Positions 5,485 to 29,617 of a stretch of DNA of 31,357 bases are shown piece by piece; the stretch's first letter is position 1, and each line of letters opens with the position of its first letter. The translations under genes were made by a program, and so were the position numbers. The stretch is from a virus, in IMG/VR virus record IMGVR_UViG_3300006735_000123, positions 1 to 31,357 of that record; one strand, given 5' to 3'. The notes under the pieces are model-generated. The model saw only the letters and a program-made list of their open reading frames with translations. It ran no database searches and had not been told where the DNA came from.

Positions 5485-5697
5485 ATGGACGAAAAGAGTT
5501 TCAGAAAGACACTACGTCACATAGGACTCGGAGATACACTCGCAAGTATCATCCATCGTGCTACCTTCGGGAAGGTCCACCCATGCTCCTCTTGTCAGAA
5601 AAGACGAGAGTTGCTGAACGACTTTTTCCCATACAAGGAGAGTAAGGATGAACGAGATGAAGCAAGTGGTGATAGCGGGAGTGGACTACAGTCTTAG
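5485..5697 (+). CDS. Small CxxC protein of unknown function
   Basis: A 70-residue protein with one CSSC motif (C34, C37) followed by QKRRELLN, a pattern seen in short phage proteins that may bind a metal or form a small knuckle. The N-terminus is basic and the C-terminus is Asp/Glu/Ser-rich and probably disordered. The start is preceded by AGAGGG 6 nt upstream. It sits 15 nt after the ribonucleotide reductase stop and overlaps the next gene by 50 nt, so it is probably co-transcribed with both. No function can be assigned. Confidence 0.7.
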   Translation: MDEKSFRKTLRHIGLGDTLASIIHRATFGKVHPCSSCQKRRELLNDFFPYKESKDERDEASGDSGSGLQS

Positions 5698-6238
5698 AGG
5701 ACCAGCCATTTGCATATGGACTGGAGATGATTCTAGGCAGTTCAGTTACAAAGACTGTCAGTTTTACTTTCTAACAGATGTCAAGTCCAAAGCAAAGGTG
5801 TACGAGAGTCGGATCTTTGGTGAGAACTTCATGGAGTACTCATGTGATGAGTCTCGATACGATACTATCTCAGACTGGGCAATGGACAAACTCAGAGGGT
5901 GTGAGGAAGTTGCTATTGAGGGATATGCCTACGGTGCAACCGGCCGTGTTTTCAATATCGCAGAGAACACAGGTATCCTAAAGTACAAACTCTATGATGC
6001 TACCATACCGATTGAAATCATCCCCCCGCAAGCAGTGAAGAAAGTTGCAACGGGTAAGGGCAATGCCAAGAAAGATGCGATGCACGCCGCTTGGTATGCA
6101 GAGACGGGGATCAACCTACAAGGGGCGATCTCTCCGAAGAAGAGTGTTGTAGACTCTCCTGTTTCTGATGTTGTAGATGCGTACTATATCTGCAAGTGTC
6201 TATGGAAGAACATGCAGAAGAGAACGTGGGGCCCTTAG
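5648..6238 (+). CDS. RuvC-like Holliday junction / branch-resolving endonuclease
   Basis: A 196-residue RNase H-fold nuclease of the RuvC type. The first strand VIAGVDYSLRGPA carries the catalytic Asp (D13). The second acidic residue is E91 in AIEGYAYGA. The C-terminal helix PVSDVVDAYYI supplies D174 and D177. The basic stretch GKGNAKKDAM before it (139-144) fits the DNA-binding loop. In phages these enzymes cut branched replication or packaging intermediates. The start ATG overlaps the preceding gene, with AAGGAGAG about 6-10 nt upstream (first ATG preferred over the one at codon 4). The stop TAG overlaps the stop of the converging minus-strand gene by 3 nt, so this is a transcription boundary with no spacer. 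Confidence 0.85.
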   Translation: MNEMKQVVIAGVDYSLRGPAICIWTGDDSRQFSYKDCQFYFLTDVKSKAKVYESRIFGENFMEYSCDESRYDTISDWAMDKLRGCEEVAIEGYAYGATGRVFNIAENTGILKYKLYDATIPIEIIPPQAVKKVATGKGNAKKDAMHAAWYAETGINLQGAISPKKSVVDSPVSDVVDAYYICKCLWKNMQKRTWGP

Positions 6239-12209: not shown

Positions 12210-14039
12210 TTACCCCAGTGTAAACTTCTTGTTGACGCTAACACTGTAGTTAGCAGAAGAGAGAAATGGCTTACCGACTAGAATCGGGTACACATTGAGT
12301 TTTCGATCTGCAAGGGCAAAGTAAACGTCTGTGTACTCTTTTCGTCCTAGAGTCATATCAAGTTGAACTACTGGACGATTCTCGAACTCACCACCGCCTA
12401 GGTGAATACGCTTGGTCTCTTTCACGGGTAGAGTCATTCGCTTCTTACCCATGAGTAGGAACGATACCTTATCGCCCTTGACCTCGATGTCCTCTGCATG
12501 TACTGCATTGTAACTACCGTTGCCGGTGTCCAGTTTGGCCTTGACCTCAAGTCCTCCGATGGATGCCTTTTCAATGTACCCCACGGTCTGCTCGCTGGAT
12601 CGGTTCGCATCCTGCTGTGTCATGAGTGATACGACATGAGACATCATCCGATCACCGTTGACTGTCTTCTTCTCACCGAAGTACGCACGATACTTGTCTG
12701 CGCCACTGCCTGGTGATCCATTCACCTCAAGGACATAGTGCTTACCACCCACGGTGATATGATCCACACCCACGACACGCCCGCCAGACAACGCTGCAAC
12801 ACGACGAGCCAAATCCTTTTCCTCTTCAGACAAGTCGTATGGTTCGGTGTCGTTACCGAGTGCCTTGTTGGTACGGAAGTCCTTCTTGCCCTTGAGACGC
12901 TTCATGCAGGCGACGATCTTACCATCAGCGACAATGGTACGAACATCGTACTTGATCTTCATGAACTCCTGTAGGATGACTTCAGCATCGTACTTCCAGA
13001 GAGACTGTAGAACGGACTTCAGAGACTGCTCAGAGTCCACCACAGCAACGCCAATACCTTCTGACCCTGTGATAGTCTTCACGACCACAGGGAACTGTCC
13101 ACCAATCTTCTTCAATGCAATCCCGATAGAATCCTCATTGGAGACGAATGCCGTCTTGGGAGTAGAAACCCCGTGACGATCAAGGGTCAACGCCGACGCC
13201 ATCTTGTTCTGACATAGTTGCATCGTCTGAATACCATTCACCATCGACGCACCTGCCTGTTCCAACACCTGCATGATTCCAAGTCCTGCATTGTTGAGAA
13301 TGGCACTACCACGAACAAAGACCACGGTATTGTCTGTCTGTACCGTGATCTTATTACCTTCGCCGTCGTAGTTGTGAATGGTGATGCTGTTGTCCGTTGC
13401 ATCCTCGTCTGCAATGTATGCCTTGTTGACGAGTACGGGAAACGCAGAGAGACCCAACTCAGTGGATACCTTCAGAAGACGCTCTGCTGTGCCTGTGACC
13501 TTCGAGTCCTCTTGTCCAGTCAAGACCAACACGGTAGGTTTGCGTAGACGCCCTTCAGTCGCTTCACGAACGGGAACTCGCTTACGCTTTGCCTTATACC
13601 ATGCAGCAATCAACTCACGAGTATTCGCTGCACCACGAGTCTTCAACTTGAGACTACCATCCTTGATACCCTGAAGTGCTGCCTGAGCGAACTCGAATGG
13701 ATCATCATGCTTACGAATCAACAACGCAAGACTCTCATCAAGGGTATCATCCTCCATGAGCGTACGCATGAAGTCAATCACATCAATGACCTTGAGAACG
13801 TTATCCGCATCTGCCTTTGCAAGAACTCGTGCTACGCCGGGAACACGCAACAACTTATTTGCAAGTGCTGTTGAATCGACATTCACCATACGATTGAGCA
13901 ACCTTACCACAAGAGGCATGTTCATCAATGCCGTTGCGAGAGTAGCAAGACCTACTGCCTCATCAATCTTTCGACGAGAGAAGAGCATATCCGACTGTGG
14001 TTTTTTCTTTTGAAGGTACGACTTCTTGCCCATAACCAT
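12210..14039 (-). CDS. RimK-like ATP-grasp ligase fused to a retropepsin-like domain
   Basis: A 609-residue protein with three parts. Residues 1-160 are helical and unrecognised, with KIDEAVG near residue 26 and TLDESL near 100. Residues about 165-470 are an ATP-grasp domain of the RimK/glutathione-synthetase type: NGIQTMQLCQNKMASALTLD, VVVKTITGSEGIGVAVV, ILQEFM, DVRTIVADGKIVACMKR and VDHITVGGKHYVLEVNGSPG. This would ligate an amino acid, often glutamate, to a protein C-terminus using ATP. Residues about 490-609 are a retropepsin-like domain with D504-T-G, as in the RimK-associated aspartyl protease-like family (RimB). The upstream stop TAA overlaps the first ATG by 1 nt; the second ATG (14033) is better spaced from AGAGGA, so Met3 may be the true start. 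The target is unknown; neighbours suggest virion proteins. Confidence 0.85.
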   Translation of the reverse strand: MVMGKKSYLQKKKPQSDMLFSRRKIDEAVGLATLATALMNMPLVVRLLNRMVNVDSTALANKLLRVPGVARVLAKADADNVLKVIDVIDFMRTLMEDDTLDESLALLIRKHDDPFEFAQAALQGIKDGSLKLKTRGAANTRELIAAWYKAKRKRVPVREATEGRLRKPTVLVLTGQEDSKVTGTAERLLKVSTELGLSAFPVLVNKAYIADEDATDNSITIHNYDGEGNKITVQTDNTVVFVRGSAILNNAGLGIMQVLEQAGASMVNGIQTMQLCQNKMASALTLDRHGVSTPKTAFVSNEDSIGIALKKIGGQFPVVVKTITGSEGIGVAVVDSEQSLKSVLQSLWKYDAEVILQEFMKIKYDVRTIVADGKIVACMKRLKGKKDFRTNKALGNDTEPYDLSEEEKDLARRVAALSGGRVVGVDHITVGGKHYVLEVNGSPGSGADKYRAYFGEKKTVNGDRMMSHVVSLMTQQDANRSSEQTVGYIEKASIGGLEVKAKLDTGNGSYNAVHAEDIEVKGDKVSFLLMGKKRMTLPVKETKRIHLGGGEFENRPVVQLDMTLGRKEYTDVYFALADRKLNVYPILVGKPFLSSANYSVSVNKKFTLG

Positions 14040-14942: not shown

Positions 14943-17171
14943 ATGACCACTACCCTCCCCGCCAACGGATTCGCGAAACTCCTCGCCACCGAAAACATCT
15001 CCGTGATGTACGATGGTTCTGCCACCACCGCTACGTTCGACACCGAATCCCGTGTCCTGCGTATGCCTATGTGGAAGGACATGAGTCGTCGTCTCAACGA
15101 TATGCTGATCGGTCACGAAGTTGGCCACGCACTGTTCACCAAGATGTCCGCTGACGATATCGTCACGTTCCTCAAGAGCGTCGATTCCCAGCATATGGAT
15201 CGCGTCATGCAGTATCTCAACGTGGTTGAGGACGCCCGCATTGACCGCCTGATCCAGCGAAAGTTCCCCGGACTCCGTAAGGACTACCGGGCTGGTTACC
15301 CCGAAATGATGGAGCGGGGTTTCTTCGGTCCTATGGATGCGGATCTCGATTCGTACTCACTGGTTGACCGAATCAACCTCAACTACAAGACTGACATGAC
15401 TGTCCCGTTCGATGTTGTCGAACAGGAGTTCATTGCTCGTATCGATGACGTTGAAGATCTCGACGAAGTTCTTGAGATCGTTCGCGATGTCTACGAGTAT
15501 GCACAAGTTCACGATTCCGAAACCGTTACTCCCGACTGGGATATGGATAATGGAATGCCCGGTGATGAAGAGGGTGAAGATCAGCAAGAGTCCGGCCAGG
15601 ATGATACTGGTGGCGCTGAGGGTGCTGACTCCTCTTCGGATGAGGGTGATGATGATAACGCCGGTTCCGGCGAGGGTTCGGACTCTGAGGAGTCCGATGG
15701 TCAAGAAGAGGGTGGTTCCTCTTCTAACAATGCTGGCGACTCGGCTGAGGATGATAGTTCCGAAGCCAAGGGTGAAGGTACTATGGAATCCGCTGCTGAT
15801 GCAGAGGATGACGGTTCCTCAGCCGAGTCGGAGCAGGTATCGGTCCAGAGCAATGGTGCTGGTAACGACGAAGCCCCTCGCGAATCGCAGACGCAGAAGG
15901 CCATGCAGGATGCCCTGAGCAACCTCACCGATGATAGTTACTGGAATGGCCACTCTGGTCAGACTCTTCCCAAGACGATGGATCTCGATAGCATCATCGT
16001 TCCGTTCAGTGAAGCGAAGAAGGATTGGGATGGTTATACTCTTCCCACCGAATCGACCTACGTCAAGGGCCTTCGTGGTTCGGTGACTCAACTGGTCCAG
16101 ATGTTCGAACGCAAGAAGCGTGGTGCGATCTTCTCCAAGCAGCAGGTTGCCAAGACTGGTACAATTGACTGCACCAAGTTGCACACCTACAAGTTCAACG
16201 ACGATATCTTCAAGCGAAACACCATCGTTCCTAACGGTAAGAACCACGGCATTCAGATGCTTATCGACTGGTCGGGTTCGATGGCTGGTAAGCCTCTCAG
16301 TGGATGCGTCAGCCAGGTTATGCTGCTTTCCGCTTTCTGTAAGAAGGCTGGTATTCCTTTCGACTGCTACGCATTCACCAACAACTGTGAGACGGATCGT
16401 CAGACAGGCGAGTACACCGAGTCCCGCAAGGTTGTTGGTGAGATGTTCAACAACGGTGACAAGGAAGAGATCAGCGGATTCCGTTTGATTCAGATCACCT
16501 CATCGACTCTCAACAAGGCAGACTTCGATCTCTCGATGCGTATCCTTGACATGTACCGCGAACACGGTGGTAACAACTACGGTGTGCCGCACCGATGGAG
16601 TCTCTCCGGTACTCCTCTCCACGAAGCCCTTATGGCGATGCGGTATCGCATTCCCGAGTTCCGTGCCCAGTACAATCTCGATGTGGTCACCATGTGTGTC
16701 CTCACCGATGGACAGGGATACTCGTCGTTCCGTCCGGGTAGCCAGCAGACCAAGGTCTTCGACCCGATCACTCGACGTACGTTGATGTACGACAAGAGGA
16801 TCTCTGCGGAGGATTGTCTCGTCGATGCTGTTCGTCAACTCACGGGCTGCAACACGATGGGATTCTTCGCTACTGATACTGACAGCACTGCGGTCCACAT
16901 GGCTGCTCGTAAGAATCCCACCAACTTCGACACTGGTGAGTTCAAGAAGATCTGGCGTACCGAGCGGGCGTACGAAGTCCCGCAGGACGGTCACGATCTC
17001 TACTTCCTGCTCAAGCCTGAAAAGGTTGAGGTTGGTAACGGTCTCGAAGATGCCGTCGCTGGCGATCTCCGTTCGGTTCGTGCCCAGTTCAAGAAGGCTG
17101 CGAAGAACGCTACTGCATCGCGTACCCTTCTGAATCGAATCACTGATGTCCTTGCGGAGAACCTTGTCTGA
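14943..17171 (+). CDS. CobT-like VWA protein with N-terminal HEVGH metalloprotease motif
   Basis: A 742-residue protein. The N-terminal domain carries HEVGHALF (58-65), a HExxH zinc-protease motif, with NVVEDARIDRL after it as a possible third-ligand region. Residues about 190-315 are a very acidic, Ser/Gly-rich linker, as in CobT. A von Willebrand A domain follows, with MIDAS motif D442-W-S-G-S446 and later SGTPLHEAL and CVLTDGQG, all metal-coordinating positions of VWA domains. VWA proteins of this type work with a MoxR/CobS-like AAA+ ATPase, present at 17752 here. Together they probably remodel or process a protein complex. The literal CobT role (cobalt insertion) is unlikely to be needed by a phage. 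It has the palindromic promoter A. Codons are visibly richer in C at third positions than in flanking genes. Confidence 0.85.
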   Translation: MTTTLPANGFAKLLATENISVMYDGSATTATFDTESRVLRMPMWKDMSRRLNDMLIGHEVGHALFTKMSADDIVTFLKSVDSQHMDRVMQYLNVVEDARIDRLIQRKFPGLRKDYRAGYPEMMERGFFGPMDADLDSYSLVDRINLNYKTDMTVPFDVVEQEFIARIDDVEDLDEVLEIVRDVYEYAQVHDSETVTPDWDMDNGMPGDEEGEDQQESGQDDTGGAEGADSSSDEGDDDNAGSGEGSDSEESDGQEEGGSSSNNAGDSAEDDSSEAKGEGTMESAADAEDDGSSAESEQVSVQSNGAGNDEAPRESQTQKAMQDALSNLTDDSYWNGHSGQTLPKTMDLDSIIVPFSEAKKDWDGYTLPTESTYVKGLRGSVTQLVQMFERKKRGAIFSKQQVAKTGTIDCTKLHTYKFNDDIFKRNTIVPNGKNHGIQMLIDWSGSMAGKPLSGCVSQVMLLSAFCKKAGIPFDCYAFTNNCETDRQTGEYTESRKVVGEMFNNGDKEEISGFRLIQITSSTLNKADFDLSMRILDMYREHGGNNYGVPHRWSLSGTPLHEALMAMRYRIPEFRAQYNLDVVTMCVLTDGQGYSSFRPGSQQTKVFDPITRRTLMYDKRISAEDCLVDAVRQLTGCNTMGFFATDTDSTAVHMAARKNPTNFDTGEFKKIWRTERAYEVPQDGHDLYFLLKPEKVEVGNGLEDAVAGDLRSVRAQFKKAAKNATASRTLLNRITDVLAENLV

Positions 17172-17647
17172 TGAATACTGTTGACCAAAATCGAAAAGAC
17201 TTCCTCGCTTTCATTCGAAAGCAACTCACCAAGTGTGGAGTCAAGTTGAACCTTCGTGCATCCAAGAAGCACCTCGATGGTGACTACGGTATGTTCTGTG
17301 AACCAGACATCGGTGGAGAACTGTGTGTCGCAGCCGGGATGTCCAAGGACAAGTTCTTCCACACTCTCGCCCATGAGTACGTTCACTTCCTGCAATGGTT
17401 CTCTGACGATCCTCTCTATCGTGCTTCCCGTGATGATGCTAGGGACTACTATGCCCTTGAGAAAGTCACTGAGGAATCTGCAATCGAGATCCTAGACCAG
17501 TGGGGACTGATCCCCGATTCGGGATGGGATCGAGTCAAGGAATCCAGCGAGAAGTACGTTTGTTCGGTGTTTGTTAGGGGTCCGAGCGTCCGCGTGAGTC
17601 GTAAACCCTTGTCCGATAAGGAGATAAAAAAGTTGAAAAAAAGGTAA
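17171..17647 (+). CDS. Putative zinc metallopeptidase (HEYVH motif)
   Basis: A 158-residue protein with H68-E-Y-V-H72 inside FFHTLAHEYVHFLQW, the helix signature of zincin-type metallopeptidases. Acidic residues in EKVTEESAIEILDQW about 25 residues later could give the third ligand. The C-terminus is Lys-rich. It overlaps the VWA gene by 1 nt (TGATG), so the two are translated together and probably act together. Substrate unknown. It is a second HExxH protein in the same operon, which suggests a dedicated proteolytic or sensing system. Confidence 0.75.
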   Translation: MNTVDQNRKDFLAFIRKQLTKCGVKLNLRASKKHLDGDYGMFCEPDIGGELCVAAGMSKDKFFHTLAHEYVHFLQWFSDDPLYRASRDDARDYYALEKVTEESAIEILDQWGLIPDSGWDRVKESSEKYVCSVFVRGPSVRVSRKPLSDKEIKKLKKR

Positions 17648-17675
17648 AAAAGACGACCCACATACCCCATTTCAC

Positions 17676-17722
17676 GGCCAGTTATGGTACACTGGCCCAT
17701 GTGGCCAGTCCACATTGACCCT
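17676..17722 (+). promoter_or_regulatory. Palindromic promoter/operator and leader, copy B (AAA+ gene)
   Basis: A near-copy of the element at 14864. GGCCAGT (17676-17682) and ACTGGCC (17691-17697) flank the -10 TACACT (17688-17693). A leader hairpin ATGTGG/CCACAT (17700-17716) follows, then the shared leader GACCCTAACAGGAACCTAAC just before the ATG at 17752. Unlike copy A, no good -35 lies 16-17 nt upstream (CCCATT or CCCCAT), so this copy may need an activator. An A-rich tract at 17625-17653 lies upstream. Confidence 0.65.
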
Positions 17723-17751
17723 TTCCCTCTGACCCTAACAGGAACCTAACC

Positions 17752-18999
17752 ATGACCTACACTGCTTCGCAAACCGCTTTCGTCTCTGCTCTCCAGTCCG
17801 CTGCTGCTGCTGGTGAGATCTCCGATCTCTGCAACGCTAACGAGTTGATCAAGGTTGCCAACTCCATTGGTAAAGCCTGTATCCCGTTGTGGGTGCGTCG
17901 AAACGAATCTCTCAAGGCCGGTCGCGGTCTGTGGAACATCAAGCCGCTTCTCGATGGTGATCAGAAGATCAATCCTCTTGACGTTCCGCAATCGTATGCC
18001 CCTGCTCCTGCTGCGACTCCCGCTCCTGCGGTGAAGTCCGCTCCCACCATCCCCACTGCACCGAGTGCCCCAGTGTCCACCGAGTTCACCAACACTACGC
18101 TGGTGCCTTCGAAGATGGATACTTACGTCCCGTGGGGTCACCACACCGATATCGAAACCATTCTCAAGTCGGGCCACTTCGCTCCGATCTTCGTGACTGG
18201 TCTCTCCGGTAACGGTAAGACCACCATGATTGAGCAGGCTTGCGCCCGCCTCAAGCGTGAGTTCTACCGCGTCAACATCACCGCCCAAACTGATGAGGAT
18301 GATCTCCTCGGTGGTTTCCGTCTCATCGATGGTAACACCGTGTGGTGTGATGGTCCCGTGATCCGTGCGATGAAGGCTGGCGGTGTCCTGCTTCTCGACG
18401 AGATCGACCTTGGTGGTCATCTCATGATGTGTCTCCAGCCCGTCCTTGAGGGCAAGGGTGTCTACGTCAAGAAGATCAACGAGTGGGTCCAGCCCGCCGC
18501 TGGTTTCACCATCCTCGCTACTGCGAACACCAAGGGCCAGGGTGACGATACTGGTAAGTTCTCCGGTACGGGCATGATGAACGAAGCCATGCTCGACCGT
18601 TTCCACTTCACGATGGAGCAGCCGTATGCTACTGCTTCCACTGAGCGGAAGATCCTGCTCAAGAACATGTCGAAGTGGAACATGGATATTGCCAAGGACG
18701 GCGATAACTACCAGTTCGCCGACATGCTCACCAAGTGGGCTGATACCATCCGCCAGACTTTCTTGCAGGGTGGTTGCAGCGAGATCATCACCACTCGACG
18801 CTTGGAGCGTATCGTCGAGGCCTTCGCGATCTTCGGTGATCGTATGAAGGCAATCAAGATGTCAGTCGCCCGCTTCGATGAGGAAACTCAGAGCGACTTC
18901 ACCCGTCTCTACGAGAAGATCGATGTCAACGTGTCGATCCCTGAAGAGACTACCACCACCGGGCCCCTCAACGTGGAGAACAACGAATGCCCCTATTGA
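17752..18999 (+). CDS. MoxR/CobS-like AAA+ ATPase
   Basis: A 415-residue AAA+ protein. Residues 1-115 are a variable N-terminal region ending in a Pro/Ala-rich linker. The ATPase core has Walker A GLSGNGKTT (150-158), Walker B LLLDEID (D216, E217), sensor-1 TILATANT, and an arginine-finger-region MLDRFHF. The order and TANT signature fit the MoxR/CobS clade, which partners VWA proteins such as the one at 14943. It probably forms a hexamer that unfolds or remodels a target recruited by the VWA partner. It has its own copy of the operon's palindromic promoter and leader. Members of this clade are common in T4-like marine phages, with no firmly known target. Confidence 0.9.
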   Translation: MTYTASQTAFVSALQSAAAAGEISDLCNANELIKVANSIGKACIPLWVRRNESLKAGRGLWNIKPLLDGDQKINPLDVPQSYAPAPAATPAPAVKSAPTIPTAPSAPVSTEFTNTTLVPSKMDTYVPWGHHTDIETILKSGHFAPIFVTGLSGNGKTTMIEQACARLKREFYRVNITAQTDEDDLLGGFRLIDGNTVWCDGPVIRAMKAGGVLLLDEIDLGGHLMMCLQPVLEGKGVYVKKINEWVQPAAGFTILATANTKGQGDDTGKFSGTGMMNEAMLDRFHFTMEQPYATASTERKILLKNMSKWNMDIAKDGDNYQFADMLTKWADTIRQTFLQGGCSEIITTRRLERIVEAFAIFGDRMKAIKMSVARFDEETQSDFTRLYEKIDVNVSIPEETTTTGPLNVENNECPY

Positions 19000-23352: not shown

Positions 23353-23616
23353 ATGAATCACAACAGTATCAAATTCCACAGGCTTGGTCACGCAGGAACT
23401 CCAGCAAACCCATGCTTAGACTTCGTTCGGGATGAAGAGGGTAACCCCTCCGTTGCGTTCTCTGGATTCGATTCCAAAGAACAATGTGATGCTTTTGATA
23501 TCACGGATCTTGATCGAGTGATTGAGATGCTCAATGAAGCAAGGGCAATGCTAGACTATGAAAACAAGAAGTCGAATACGCCCGCATTCGATTTCAATAC
23601 ACCGGAGAATTGCTGA
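23353..23616 (+). CDS. Small unknown protein
   Basis: An 87-residue acidic protein (MNHNSIKFHRLGHAGTPANP...), containing DLDRVIEMLNEARAMLD, a likely amphipathic helix. The ATG at 23353 is chosen over 23341 because GGAG (23343-23346) is correctly spaced from it. The stop overlaps the GroES-like start (TGATG). No family recognised. Confidence 0.6.
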   Translation: MNHNSIKFHRLGHAGTPANPCLDFVRDEEGNPSVAFSGFDSKEQCDAFDITDLDRVIEMLNEARAMLDYENKKSNTPAFDFNTPENC

Positions 23617-23942
23617 TGACAGAAGGAATGGAAATCATCTACGACTACGCACCAGAGGACTTTGAACCACATGGAGAGTCTGTAGTAGTCAAGAGAGATG
23701 ATGATGTCGAGAAGACAGAAGCAGGTATTATCTTTCCGAACAACAAGGTCCGGTGGACCGGAACCATCCACGCAATGGGTGATGGTAAGCGTTGCAAGGA
23801 ACTACAGGAAAATGGTCTGATGGACGTTGGTGATCGTGTCGTCGTCTGGCCTGAAAAGTATTACACGGTTGCAGATGATCCAAAGTACATGCTCATGAAC
23901 GTGAACAAAGTCTTGGGTCGTATTCAAAAGGCCTCTTCTTGA
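23616..23942 (+). CDS. GroES-like co-chaperonin
   Basis: A 108-residue Cpn10-fold protein. Seen: ESVVVKRDDDVEKTEAGIIF (the N-terminal strand and mobile-loop region), WTGTIHAMGDGKR (the GxVxAxGxG strand), VGDRVVVWPEKY and a C-terminal MNVNKVLGRI, all in GroES order. It would cap host GroEL; many tailed phages, such as T4 with gp31, encode their own to fold the capsid protein. GroEL is not in this window. The ATG at 23616 has GGAG 8 nt upstream, so a TTG two codons earlier is rejected. Confidence 0.85.
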   Translation: MTEGMEIIYDYAPEDFEPHGESVVVKRDDDVEKTEAGIIFPNNKVRWTGTIHAMGDGKRCKELQENGLMDVGDRVVVWPEKYYTVADDPKYMLMNVNKVLGRIQKASS

Positions 23943-27595: not shown

Positions 27596-27623
27596 TTGAC
27601 AGAAGTTCGATCCAACATACAAT
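27596..27623 (+). promoter_or_regulatory. tmRNA promoter (TTGACA-16-TACAAT)
   Basis: TTGACA at 27596-27601 and TACAAT at 27618-27623, 16-nt spacer. The expected start (about 27630) coincides with the first base of the helix 2 strand of the tmRNA acceptor piece, so the primary transcript would begin with the acceptor piece. Confidence 0.88.
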
Positions 27624-27629
27624 ACTTAT

Positions 27630-27689
27630 GTCATCGAAGAAGGAATGGATGACTGAAACCACACGGGGGTTCGAATCCCCCCGACTCCA
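27630..27689 (+). ncRNA. ssrA: Permuted tmRNA, acceptor piece (3' part of the tRNA-like domain)
   Basis: Seen: GTCATC (27630-27635) and GACTGA (27651-27656), complementary to helix 2 segments of the coding piece; T arm GGGGG-TTCGAAT-CCCCC (27665-27681); acceptor strand CGACTCC (27682-27688); discriminator A (27689). CCA is not encoded (next bases CTG), so it must be added. There is no 5' tRNA half upstream, only the promoter. The acceptor strand pairs over 7 bp with GGGGTCG at 27912-27918, including G3.U70, the alanine identity pair used by all tmRNAs. In permuted tmRNA genes this piece precedes the coding piece, as here. Confidence 0.88.
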
Positions 27690-27704
27690 CTGAAAGGAAC
27701 GGAT

Positions 27705-27908
27705 ATGGAAAGCAGAGTAGAAAACAAGGGTCGCAAAACAAAGCGTGAAGCGGCACACTACTGGCCTACTAAGGTCCGTTACAAGGGAGAGTCCCATTGG
27801 ATTCTCCTCACCGATACCGAAGTCGTTCGTGCAGCGAAACGTGCGAAGGCGAATCCAGAGGATCGCCCGGGACTTTGGGGACGCATCCGATTGGTGTTTG
27901 GATTCTAA
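27705..27908 (+). CDS. 67-residue basic protein encoded in the tmRNA spacer
   Basis: The gene lies wholly between the tmRNA acceptor and coding pieces. AAGGA (27694-27698) is well spaced from the ATG, and the TAA (27906-27908) ends 3 nt before the coding-piece G-run. The product is basic (MESRVENKGRKTKREAAHYW, then PTKVRYKGESHWILLTDTEV, then VRAAKRAKANPEDRPGLW...). No family is recognised. The stretch ILLTDTEVVRAAKRAKAN has a faint likeness to the LxGxEVKSLRxGKAN core of SmpB, the tmRNA partner, but the rest of SmpB is absent, so I do not claim homology. It would be transcribed from the tmRNA promoter and must be translated before the spacer is removed, or the spacer itself serves as its mRNA. 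Confidence 0.65.
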   Translation: MESRVENKGRKTKREAAHYWPTKVRYKGESHWILLTDTEVVRAAKRAKANPEDRPGLWGRIRLVFGF

Positions 27909-27911
27909 CAG

Positions 27912-28330
27912 GGGGTCGAATGGTTTCGATGGGTCAGTTTGAAAAACTGGAGATGACCGGGAAGGCAACCTACTCGAATCAATGGTTGCAAAACTCAAAC
28001 GCCAATGAAATGCGTATCGCTGCTTGACGCAGCACGGGCGACCTCAGCCTAGGGGAACAAAGAGGTACTCCTCACCTTGGACGAAAGTTCAAGATGAGGG
28101 TTTCAAAACTGAATAGATGAAACATGTGTTGGGACTAATTACCCCGGCACAGGACGGTGACTGAATATTGTTCGTCATGTGATAAAAGGTACTGTCTTCC
28201 CTGTAGTGGGGTGCCAATGCTCAAATGAGTGAGGTAGCGTATAACTAACGCAAGGTAGGTGCGAGTAGGATCAAATTCACTAGCGTGAATCCGAAAGTTG
28301 GTGGTAAATTGTGAGTCCACCCCGTCCACG
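27912..28330 (+). ncRNA. ssrA: Permuted tmRNA, coding piece (5' part, tag and downstream structured region)
   Basis: Seen in order: acceptor strand GGGGTCG (27912-27918); D-loop-like GGTTTCGATGGG (27922-27933); helix 2 segments TCAGTT (27934-27939) and GATGAC (27952-27957), complementary to the acceptor piece; H-type pseudoknot with S1 CGGG/CTCG (27958-27961, 27973-27976) and S2 GCAACC/GGTTGC (27965-27970, 27984-27989); tag from GCC 28001 reading ANEMRIAA then TGA (28025-28027); H5-like hairpin GCTGC-TTGAC-GCAGC (28019-28033) with the stop in its loop. Downstream hairpins include CCTCACCTTGGAC-GAAA-GTTCAAGATGAGG (28070-28099) and ATTCAC-TAGC-GTGAAT (near 28275). The mature 3' end is not determined; about 300 nt after the tag is long for a two-piece tmRNA. 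Confidence 0.85.
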
Positions 28331-28341
28331 ATCTTCAAAGA

Positions 28342-28384
28342 AGGGCCCTGAGTTTGAGATTTTCTCCTCGGGGCCCTCTTTTCA
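28342..28384 (+). terminator. Intrinsic terminator of the tmRNA transcript
   Basis: An 11-bp stem AGGGCCCTGAG (28342-28352) with CTCGGGGCCCT (28367-28377), one T-G pair, then CTTTTC. It ends the tmRNA unit. Confidence 0.85.
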
Positions 28385-28510
28385 ATTATACATAAGGGTG
28401 TACTAGGGCGAACGAACTTCGTTCATGTGCAGGGACGGACCACGGGAATTTCGCTACCTTAGAACCGTCAACAAGAGGCGCCCTCACTTGGTGGGGGCGC
28501 TTCATTATAG
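28385..28510 (+). other. Intergenic segment with three hairpins (possible small RNA or leader)
   Basis: No coding frame is supported. It holds GAACGA-ACT-TCGTTC (28410-28424), an outer pair GACGG/CCGTC (28434-28438 with 28465-28469), and GCGCCCTCAC-TTG-GTGGGGGCGC (28478-28500) followed by TTCATTATA, a terminator-like hairpin with a poor U-tract. It could be a short RNA between two units or the structured leader of the gene at 28532. No promoter with a good -35 is visible. Confidence 0.4.
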
Positions 28511-28531: not shown

Positions 28532-29617
28532 ATGAGCATAAAAAGGTTCCAGACCCACATCAGTGATAATCAAATTCTAAATGAAGGCGCGAGAAGTCGC
28601 GGTGAAGAGATGGAAGAGTTTATTGTTGCCGCTCTAAATGGTGATGATGAACCTATCTCCAAATTCGGCATTGAGACTGGGGCAGGCGAGAGAGTCGTTG
28701 AGCAAATGCCTTTCAAACCAAACAGTGGACAAGCCACCGTTCTCGGTGCTGAAACTATTGAGGTTACACAGAAGTGGGCTAGTTTCTGGGATCCAGACAA
28801 CGTACCGGGATCCACCAAGACCCCCAAGACAGACCTCATAGCGAAGTCAGACAAGATCTCCCTGAAGACCGGAGCGGACGCTCAGTTGATGTCAGGAGGA
28901 CGTAACGAGAGCGTGGCGACCTTCTACGCTGCTGTAGATCTAAGTGGTACGAAACTGGATGCTTTCGGGAAGAAGATCGCGGAAGCAATCGGAGATCTCG
29001 CGCCTTCGAGTATCGCTGCTGGACCGACTAGACAAGAGATCAAGAAAGGCACTGATGCCCTCCTTGTTGCTGCCGATCAGGCCCACAAAGTCTTGACAAA
29101 AGAACTAACCAAGATGTTTGAGGGTAATCCAGAGTTCGCATACTTCTTCATTCGTGAAGCAATGACGGGCGAGACTAAGTTTGGTGGCAATGACGGAACA
29201 TGCACCCACTTCCTAACCTGCGACTTCGATGGAGAGAACGTCCACTACATTCCTGTCACAGACGAGGCATACGTCAGGAAGATTGCAAACAGAGCGAAGG
29301 TTTCTGTTCGCATGAAGTCAGTCAGTGAAAAGAAAAAGGTTGGTGGTAAGAAGACTAAGACTGGACGGTATCGCTACTGGTCCGCAGTTGGCATCCTTGC
29401 AGACAAACTCACAGAAGAGGCAGAGACACTTGAACGTGATGGTGTGTTACTTACGGAAAATGTGGTCAAGAGACTACTCAGTAAGTTCATGAACTTCTTG
29501 AAGAAGTTGGTTTCGAAAATCGTCGAACACATCAAGAAGGGTGCGAAGTACGCACTTGAATTCATGGGACTCCAACCAGAAGTTGAGTTCGTCAACAACA
29601 TCGATTTCAGACCATAA
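28532..29617 (+). CDS. Candidate packaged protein with nuclease-like D...SLK motif
   Basis: A 361-residue protein. The N-terminus MSIKRFQTHISDNQILNEGA looks like a capsid-targeting peptide ending in an LNE prohead-protease site (residues 16-18). D101-LIAKSDKIS-L-K112 then GADAQLMSGG resembles a restriction-endonuclease-like active site (D...x-L-K), a pattern I associate with T4-like marine phage structural proteins. The C-terminus has a basic amphipathic region (LLSKFMNFLKKLVSKIVEHI). It may be placed in the head and injected; nuclease activity is unproven. GAGGAGA precedes the ATG. It starts a unit with the next genes in the same direction. Confidence 0.6.
   Translation: MSIKRFQTHISDNQILNEGARSRGEEMEEFIVAALNGDDEPISKFGIETGAGERVVEQMPFKPNSGQATVLGAETIEVTQKWASFWDPDNVPGSTKTPKTDLIAKSDKISLKTGADAQLMSGGRNESVATFYAAVDLSGTKLDAFGKKIAEAIGDLAPSSIAAGPTRQEIKKGTDALLVAADQAHKVLTKELTKMFEGNPEFAYFFIREAMTGETKFGGNDGTCTHFLTCDFDGENVHYIPVTDEAYVRKIANRAKVSVRMKSVSEKKKVGGKKTKTGRYRYWSAVGILADKLTEEAETLERDGVLLTENVVKRLLSKFMNFLKKLVSKIVEHIKKGAKYALEFMGLQPEVEFVNNIDFRP

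Follow-up and report, generated by a model that had tools for sequence, protein, structure and literature searches.

We analyzed a window of 31,357 bases (the whole stretch of DNA given by one IMG/VR virus record). It contains a transcription unit that belongs to a marine tailed phage and that is probably best read as a single unit, ordered as a promoter, the acceptor piece of a permuted, two-piece tmRNA, a protein gene that we call orf67, the coding piece of the tmRNA, a manA-like RNA, and a terminator. The features are the following:

27596-27623, + strand: sigma-70-type promoter, TTGACA-16-TACAAT, agreeing with the consensus at 11 of 12 positions.
27629-27689, + strand: acceptor piece of the tmRNA, with helix-2 strands, T arm, acceptor 3' strand (27682-27688) and discriminator A27689; from RF04321, ARAGORN and covariation, the 5' end being a prediction.
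27690-27911, + strand: intervening sequence of 222 nt, with boundaries from the acceptor pairing.
27694-27698, + strand: Shine-Dalgarno sequence AAGGA, read from the sequence, 6 nt upstream of the orf67 start codon.
27705-27908, + strand: orf67, the nested protein gene; from homologues in L003 and L267, codon usage, and a chance probability of 0.0006.
27912-28126, + strand: coding piece of the tmRNA, with acceptor 5' strand (27912-27918), helix 2, pseudoknot 1 (27958-27989), tag and 3' hairpins; from RF04321, ARAGORN and covariation, the 3' end being provisional.
28001-28027, + strand: tag frame, ANEMRIAA and a stop codon, from ARAGORN; the relative L005 has ANDMRIAA.
28127-28331, + strand: manA-like RNA (RF01745), outside a 5' UTR; 49.9 bits, E 5e-12.
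28338-28385, + strand: intrinsic terminator of the unit, -25.7 kcal/mol, z -4.3, with CUUUUC after it.

The Rfam model of permuted tmRNA (RF04321) aligns end to end with positions 27629-28027 at 71.3 bits (E 5e-12, for a gathering score of 47), and ARAGORN places a permuted tmRNA at 27598-28118. A first-pass annotation, made from the letters of the sequence, had proposed a phage-borne two-piece tmRNA here and had suggested both programs as a check; the two matches, the covariation described below, and the origin of the DNA in a virus record bear this out. The promoter and terminator that it had placed around the tmRNA were also recovered, and a comparable promoter, equally spaced, is found in the relatives L005, L006, L008 and L009. 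The acceptor stem that it had described forms 7 of 7 pairs between CGACTCC and GGGGTCG, including the G3.U70 wobble. Helix 2 joins the two pieces as it had indicated, by pairing GTCATC (27630-27635) with GATGAC (27952-27957) and GACTGA (27651-27656) with TCAGTT (27934-27939). The H-type pseudoknot that it had seen between helix 2 and the tag consists of CGGG (27958-27961) with CTCG (27973-27976) and GCAACC (27965-27970) with GGTTGC (27984-27989), and the tag does end in AA. The T loop TTCGAAT is intact, CCA is not encoded after the discriminator A27689, beyond which orf67 begins, and no group I intron was found in the window at the Rfam threshold.

Other parts of the first-pass annotation have to be revised. 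The hairpin resembling H5 that it had drawn at the stop codon of the tag folds no better than shuffled sequences (z -0.58). Its second RNA of about 400 nt would take in the manA-like RNA, a separate element that it had overlooked, and a length closer to 210 nt is probable for the mature coding piece. What it took for a spacer between the pieces holds orf67, which had escaped it as well. No smpB was recognized in the 31-kb fragment, among the part of its ORFs that was searched.

Relatives of the locus were gathered through the downstream neighbor gene (28532-29617), which gave 21 loci. A permuted tmRNA scored over the cut-off in the same neighborhood in a near-identical twin of the window and in L005, L006, L008, L009, L010, L012 and L013, the scores of L010 and L013 being exactly equal to that of L012. 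We aligned five sequences (the window, L005, L006, L008 and L009). In the acceptor stem, the T stem and the three helix-2 segments, 94.3% of the cells are paired and 11 of the 28 pairs have changed on both sides, which none of 500 shuffles attained; controls with a slid partner strand gave at most one such pair. The pseudoknot is 100% paired in all five sequences, with 3 of its 10 pairs changed on both sides, for a total of 14 out of 38. The doubly changed pairs include seven in the outer and innermost segments of helix 2 and two in its middle segment, while the acceptor stem has one pair compensated in the relatives. For example, GACTGA/TCAGTT of the window is GACCAA/TTGGTC in its near relative L005. 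The acceptor and helix-2 pairings are thus kept through compensatory changes in homologous phages, a comparison that the first-pass annotation had named as a way to refute its reading. One might still suppose that this copy of the tmRNA is inactive or in decay, and that only the nested gene and the manA-like RNA have been kept. The score is modest, with 71 bits compared to 109-144 for L392, L388, L268 and L159, and L390 and L391 offer examples of worn copies. However, the compensatory changes affect helix 2, the T stem, the acceptor stem and the pseudoknot, the tag frame is intact, and the promoter is retained among relatives, all of which makes decay very improbable.

Blastn searches with the window tmRNA, and likewise with two other tmRNA queries, gave no match in 50,697 phage genomes, so that isolates could not be compared. 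We also looked for a bacterial donor by searching with the sequence of the acceptor piece and discarded the idea: the matches were mostly in Bacteroidetes and included no convincing permuted gene.

The gene lying between the two pieces, orf67, is a frame of 67 codons that starts with ATG at 27705 and has a TAA ending at 27908, 3 nt short of the coding piece. Its Shine-Dalgarno sequence comes directly after the acceptor piece and its start codon 15 nt past the predicted cleavage site. Several observations indicate that orf67 is a real gene. Free-standing homologues are present in two other phages (L003 5938-6156 and L267 2938-3156), with alignment scores of 82 and 75 for shuffled means near 23 (Z 12.9 and 11.7), and 0 of 5000 shuffles reach the score. 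The codon usage is within the range of the other genes of the phage and that of the other frames is negative. The chance probability given above is that of an ATG frame with a Shine-Dalgarno sequence in a random segment of the same composition. These results, including the Shine-Dalgarno sequence itself, largely refute the notion of a chance frame in a non-coding spacer. That notion is now scarcely credible, even though orf67 has no Pfam match, no useful PHROG match, and no diverged copy in the same position. This last point also means that selection on orf67 is not measurable. ARAGORN found no tmRNA in L003, the family was absent from the bacterial genomes searched, and AlphaFold gave a model of low confidence (pLDDT 56) with at best a beta-beta-alpha core. 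In L005 the intervening sequence is only 27 nt long, CTTCGAAAAAATGGAAAGCAAGTACAT, in which a likeness to the first codons of orf67 persists, and the simplest reading of the two sequences would be a deletion. Hence, orf67 is dispensable in L005, which lacks it yet retains the tmRNA.

To see the layout in other phages, we used a detector with three requirements: a T arm, seven pairs in the acceptor stem, and the 5' end of a tmRNA. It identified 39 distinct intervening sequences in viral contigs, ranging from 5 to 222 nt, the longest being that of the window. Since one of the scans that built the collection looked specifically for a Shine-Dalgarno sequence and ATG after an acceptor end, no frequencies can be read from this set. 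Another clear example is L330, from the same record as L388, on a 168-kb contig of a phage that is probably T4-like. Its layout is CTCCACCA TAAGGATTGT ATG, 52 codons, TGA T, GGGGGTG: the stop codon of this gene, orf52, is 1 nt short of the coding piece, and the protein is unrelated to that of orf67. It is encoded in seven loci, a count that takes in L388 itself and another locus whose protein is identical, and in four of them (L388, L389, L392 and L394) the gene lies inside a permuted tmRNA confirmed by Rfam. In L390 and L391, orf52 is intact between apparent worn remains of the acceptor piece and of the start of the coding piece; a second permuted tmRNA follows the worn copy, with the customary inverted repeat at the ends of its intervening sequence, and the whole tandem arrangement is at 1560-2210 in L390. 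In L393, orf52 is just upstream of the acceptor piece. The dN/dS values of orf52 (0.06-0.39) and its persistence beside a worn tmRNA indicate that the protein is selected for itself. Judging from these arrangements, tandem duplication may move orf52 in and out of the tmRNA gene. There are two weaker cases, a frame led by a Shine-Dalgarno sequence in L268 (same record as L200), which overlaps the coding piece by 60 nt, and a frame of 34 codons in L159. The 167-nt intervening sequence of L186/L190 has no convincing ORF. As a control for nested ORFs in bacteria we turned to one genome group, in which no permuted tmRNA scored above the cut-off.

Two other features of these tmRNAs can be mentioned. 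In the acceptor piece of L394 (200-235), of the second copy of L390, and of L391, GGCAGTG replaces the T loop TTCGACT, with the acceptor pairing and the tag kept. The permuted tmRNAs of L171, L223, L263, L228, L241 and L245 have unusually long predicted tags of 23-31 residues, e.g., AKSSDTAANNIVAFSRILTREFARTDELVTA, which are possibly artefacts of the reading frame chosen by ARAGORN.

The sequences directly show the tmRNA with its conserved pairing, the ORF with its homology, and the recurrence of the layout in further phages. Expression, processing, tagging, the competition described below and any role of the protein are inferences from them. In the explanation that we find likely, the two-piece tmRNA would be excised from this marine-phage unit by host enzymes while orf67 is translated. 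As base pairing in the acceptor stem and in helix 2 joins the pieces, the host tRNA-processing enzymes should excise them: RNase P would cut between 27911 and 27912, and a 3' nuclease followed by CCA addition would act after A27689. Host SmpB and the two-piece tmRNA would then rescue stalled ribosomes, whose products would be tagged with ANEMRIAA. Since orf67 has a ribosome-binding site of its own and forms a complete cistron, either the precursor or the excised segment would serve as the template for its protein. If the nested genes in unrelated phages, of which orf52 is under purifying selection, are indeed coding, then one precursor would give three products, two tmRNA pieces and an mRNA.

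The start codon of orf67 follows one cleavage site by 15 nt, and 3 nt separate its stop codon from the other, so that a ribosome translating orf67 would sit over the acceptor stem and translation should compete with maturation. To assess this, we computed the pairing of the Shine-Dalgarno sequences with the acceptor stem forced, together with 200 shuffled controls. In L388, L392 and L394, all of the orf52 Shine-Dalgarno sequence is taken up in pairs with the final codons of the same gene (probability 1.00), and that of L268 is mostly paired with the end of its intervening sequence (0.79); in both cases 0 of 200 shuffles were as high. For the window, the corresponding value of 0.37 lacks significance, since 26 of 200 shuffles were as high. 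The codons that form the stem, AAA TCT TTA TGA, are identical in L388, L390, L392 and L394, whereas L393, where the gene is outside the tmRNA, has AAA TCT TCG TGA instead. The putative competition between translation and processing is thus best supported in the phages with orf52. We give about even chances to a simpler account, in which the nested gene is a passenger that landed by insertion or duplication in a tolerant site, and is translated as it would be anywhere, with no functional tie to the tmRNA. This would fit L005, which keeps its tmRNA without orf67, the presence of the orf67 homologues and of the L393 orf52 outside tmRNA genes, the wide range of intervening-sequence lengths, and the non-significant occlusion in the window. 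It accounts less well for a Shine-Dalgarno sequence built into the terminal stem in orf52, for stem codons that are identical in the four loci and not in L393, and for start and stop codons that abut the cleavage sites in unrelated phages. A further proposal, which we hold only tentatively and think rather unlikely, is that the phages use the intervening sequence as a coupled cistron, with the ribosome-binding site and stop codon of the nested gene in the fold needed by the processing enzymes, so that the rescue RNA could not mature while the small protein is being translated, and vice versa. The output of tmRNA would then respond to ribosome availability during infection. The layout offers a natural test of the interference between translation and tRNA-type processing.

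The tmRNA by itself is of a kind already known in phages. A study of phage Melnitz in 2022 scanned 18,146 phage genomes and reported 53 two-piece tmRNAs, 50 of them marine or aquatic (PMC9004378), which makes that of the window less surprising than the first-pass annotation had claimed. The Melnitz gene is associated with a glutamine riboswitch (PMC9004378). Melnitz, the pelagimyophages and the window have in common that a marine phage carries a permuted tmRNA together with a linked RNA of the riboswitch type. The linked RNA is a glutamine (glnA) riboswitch in the published case and manA-like in the window, and our search of PMC9004378 turned up no mention of either an intervening sequence or a gene within one. 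The permuted tmRNAs of alphaproteobacteria, betaproteobacteria and cyanobacteria (RF04321, RF01849-RF01851) share with ours the swapped order of the pieces, the acceptor-stem G.U, helix 2 across the pieces, the pseudoknot before the tag, and a tag ending in AA. Unlike them, the window has an intervening sequence filled by a protein gene, a short tag of 8 residues, and a manA-like RNA afterward in the same unit. The tmRNA database of 2025 comprises 11,946 permuted sequences; it cites one intervening sequence containing a tRNA-Ala gene and one containing a repetitive element, and the terms "open reading frame" and "ORF" are absent from its main text (PMC11915505). A protein gene is also found inside tmRNA genes bearing group I introns, some with a homing-endonuclease gene (PMC11915505), but there the gene is in a self-splicing intron in the T loop, whereas in the window it is between the two pieces, with no intron or endonuclease recognized. 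We found no report of a protein gene in the intervening sequence of a permuted tmRNA in the literature covered, which excludes subscription papers and supplements. The nested protein gene, recurring with unrelated proteins in other phages and selected where this is measurable, appears to be the new part. The intervening sequence has so far been treated as a throw-away spacer; nested genes would make it a coding site, and show how a phage can fit a protein gene within that of a non-coding RNA.

The manA-like RNA matches RF01745 over the full model (1-192 of 192), with a score slightly below the gathering score of 55.2, and L009 has one at 5658-5881 (45.7 bits, E 1.5e-8), likewise after the tmRNA, closed by a terminator and outside a 5' UTR. 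RNAs of the manA family, with which ours shares its occurrence in a marine phage, are usually in presumed 5' UTRs (compare PMC2864571), and in viral contigs the consensus ones have a median of 49 nt to the next ORF (95 viral loci). In contrast, the copy in the window is closed by the terminator, which is followed by a second hairpin before the ATG at 28532, and the next gene starts 201 nt after the manA-like RNA; this copy is therefore not in a 5' UTR. We considered a general link between manA and tmRNA and ruled it out, as 0 of 120 consensus-manA loci had a tmRNA identified by ARAGORN. As far as tested, the link is thus special to this phage group. A manA-like RNA closing a tmRNA unit bears on what manA RNAs do. 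In L006, L008 and L009, a small basic ORF (MSKMTYREQNDYRRWY...) is present between the tmRNA and the manA-like RNA. An Hsp20 (ibpA-like) gene lies just upstream of the tmRNA in L005 (2491-2904) and is absent at the same place in the window; ibpA is among the gene classes reported under manA RNAs.

Elsewhere in the window, a CobT-like "peptidase" and an ATPase form a pair at 14943-18999. The homologues of the first, at about 32% identity, are mainly in cyanophages, which places the phage among marine T4-like relatives. A protein of 609 aa with RimK-like ATP-grasp and putative zinc-protease domains (PF08443 and PF05618) is encoded at 12210-14039 on the - strand, and a phage GroES-like (Cpn10) gene is found at 23610-23942.
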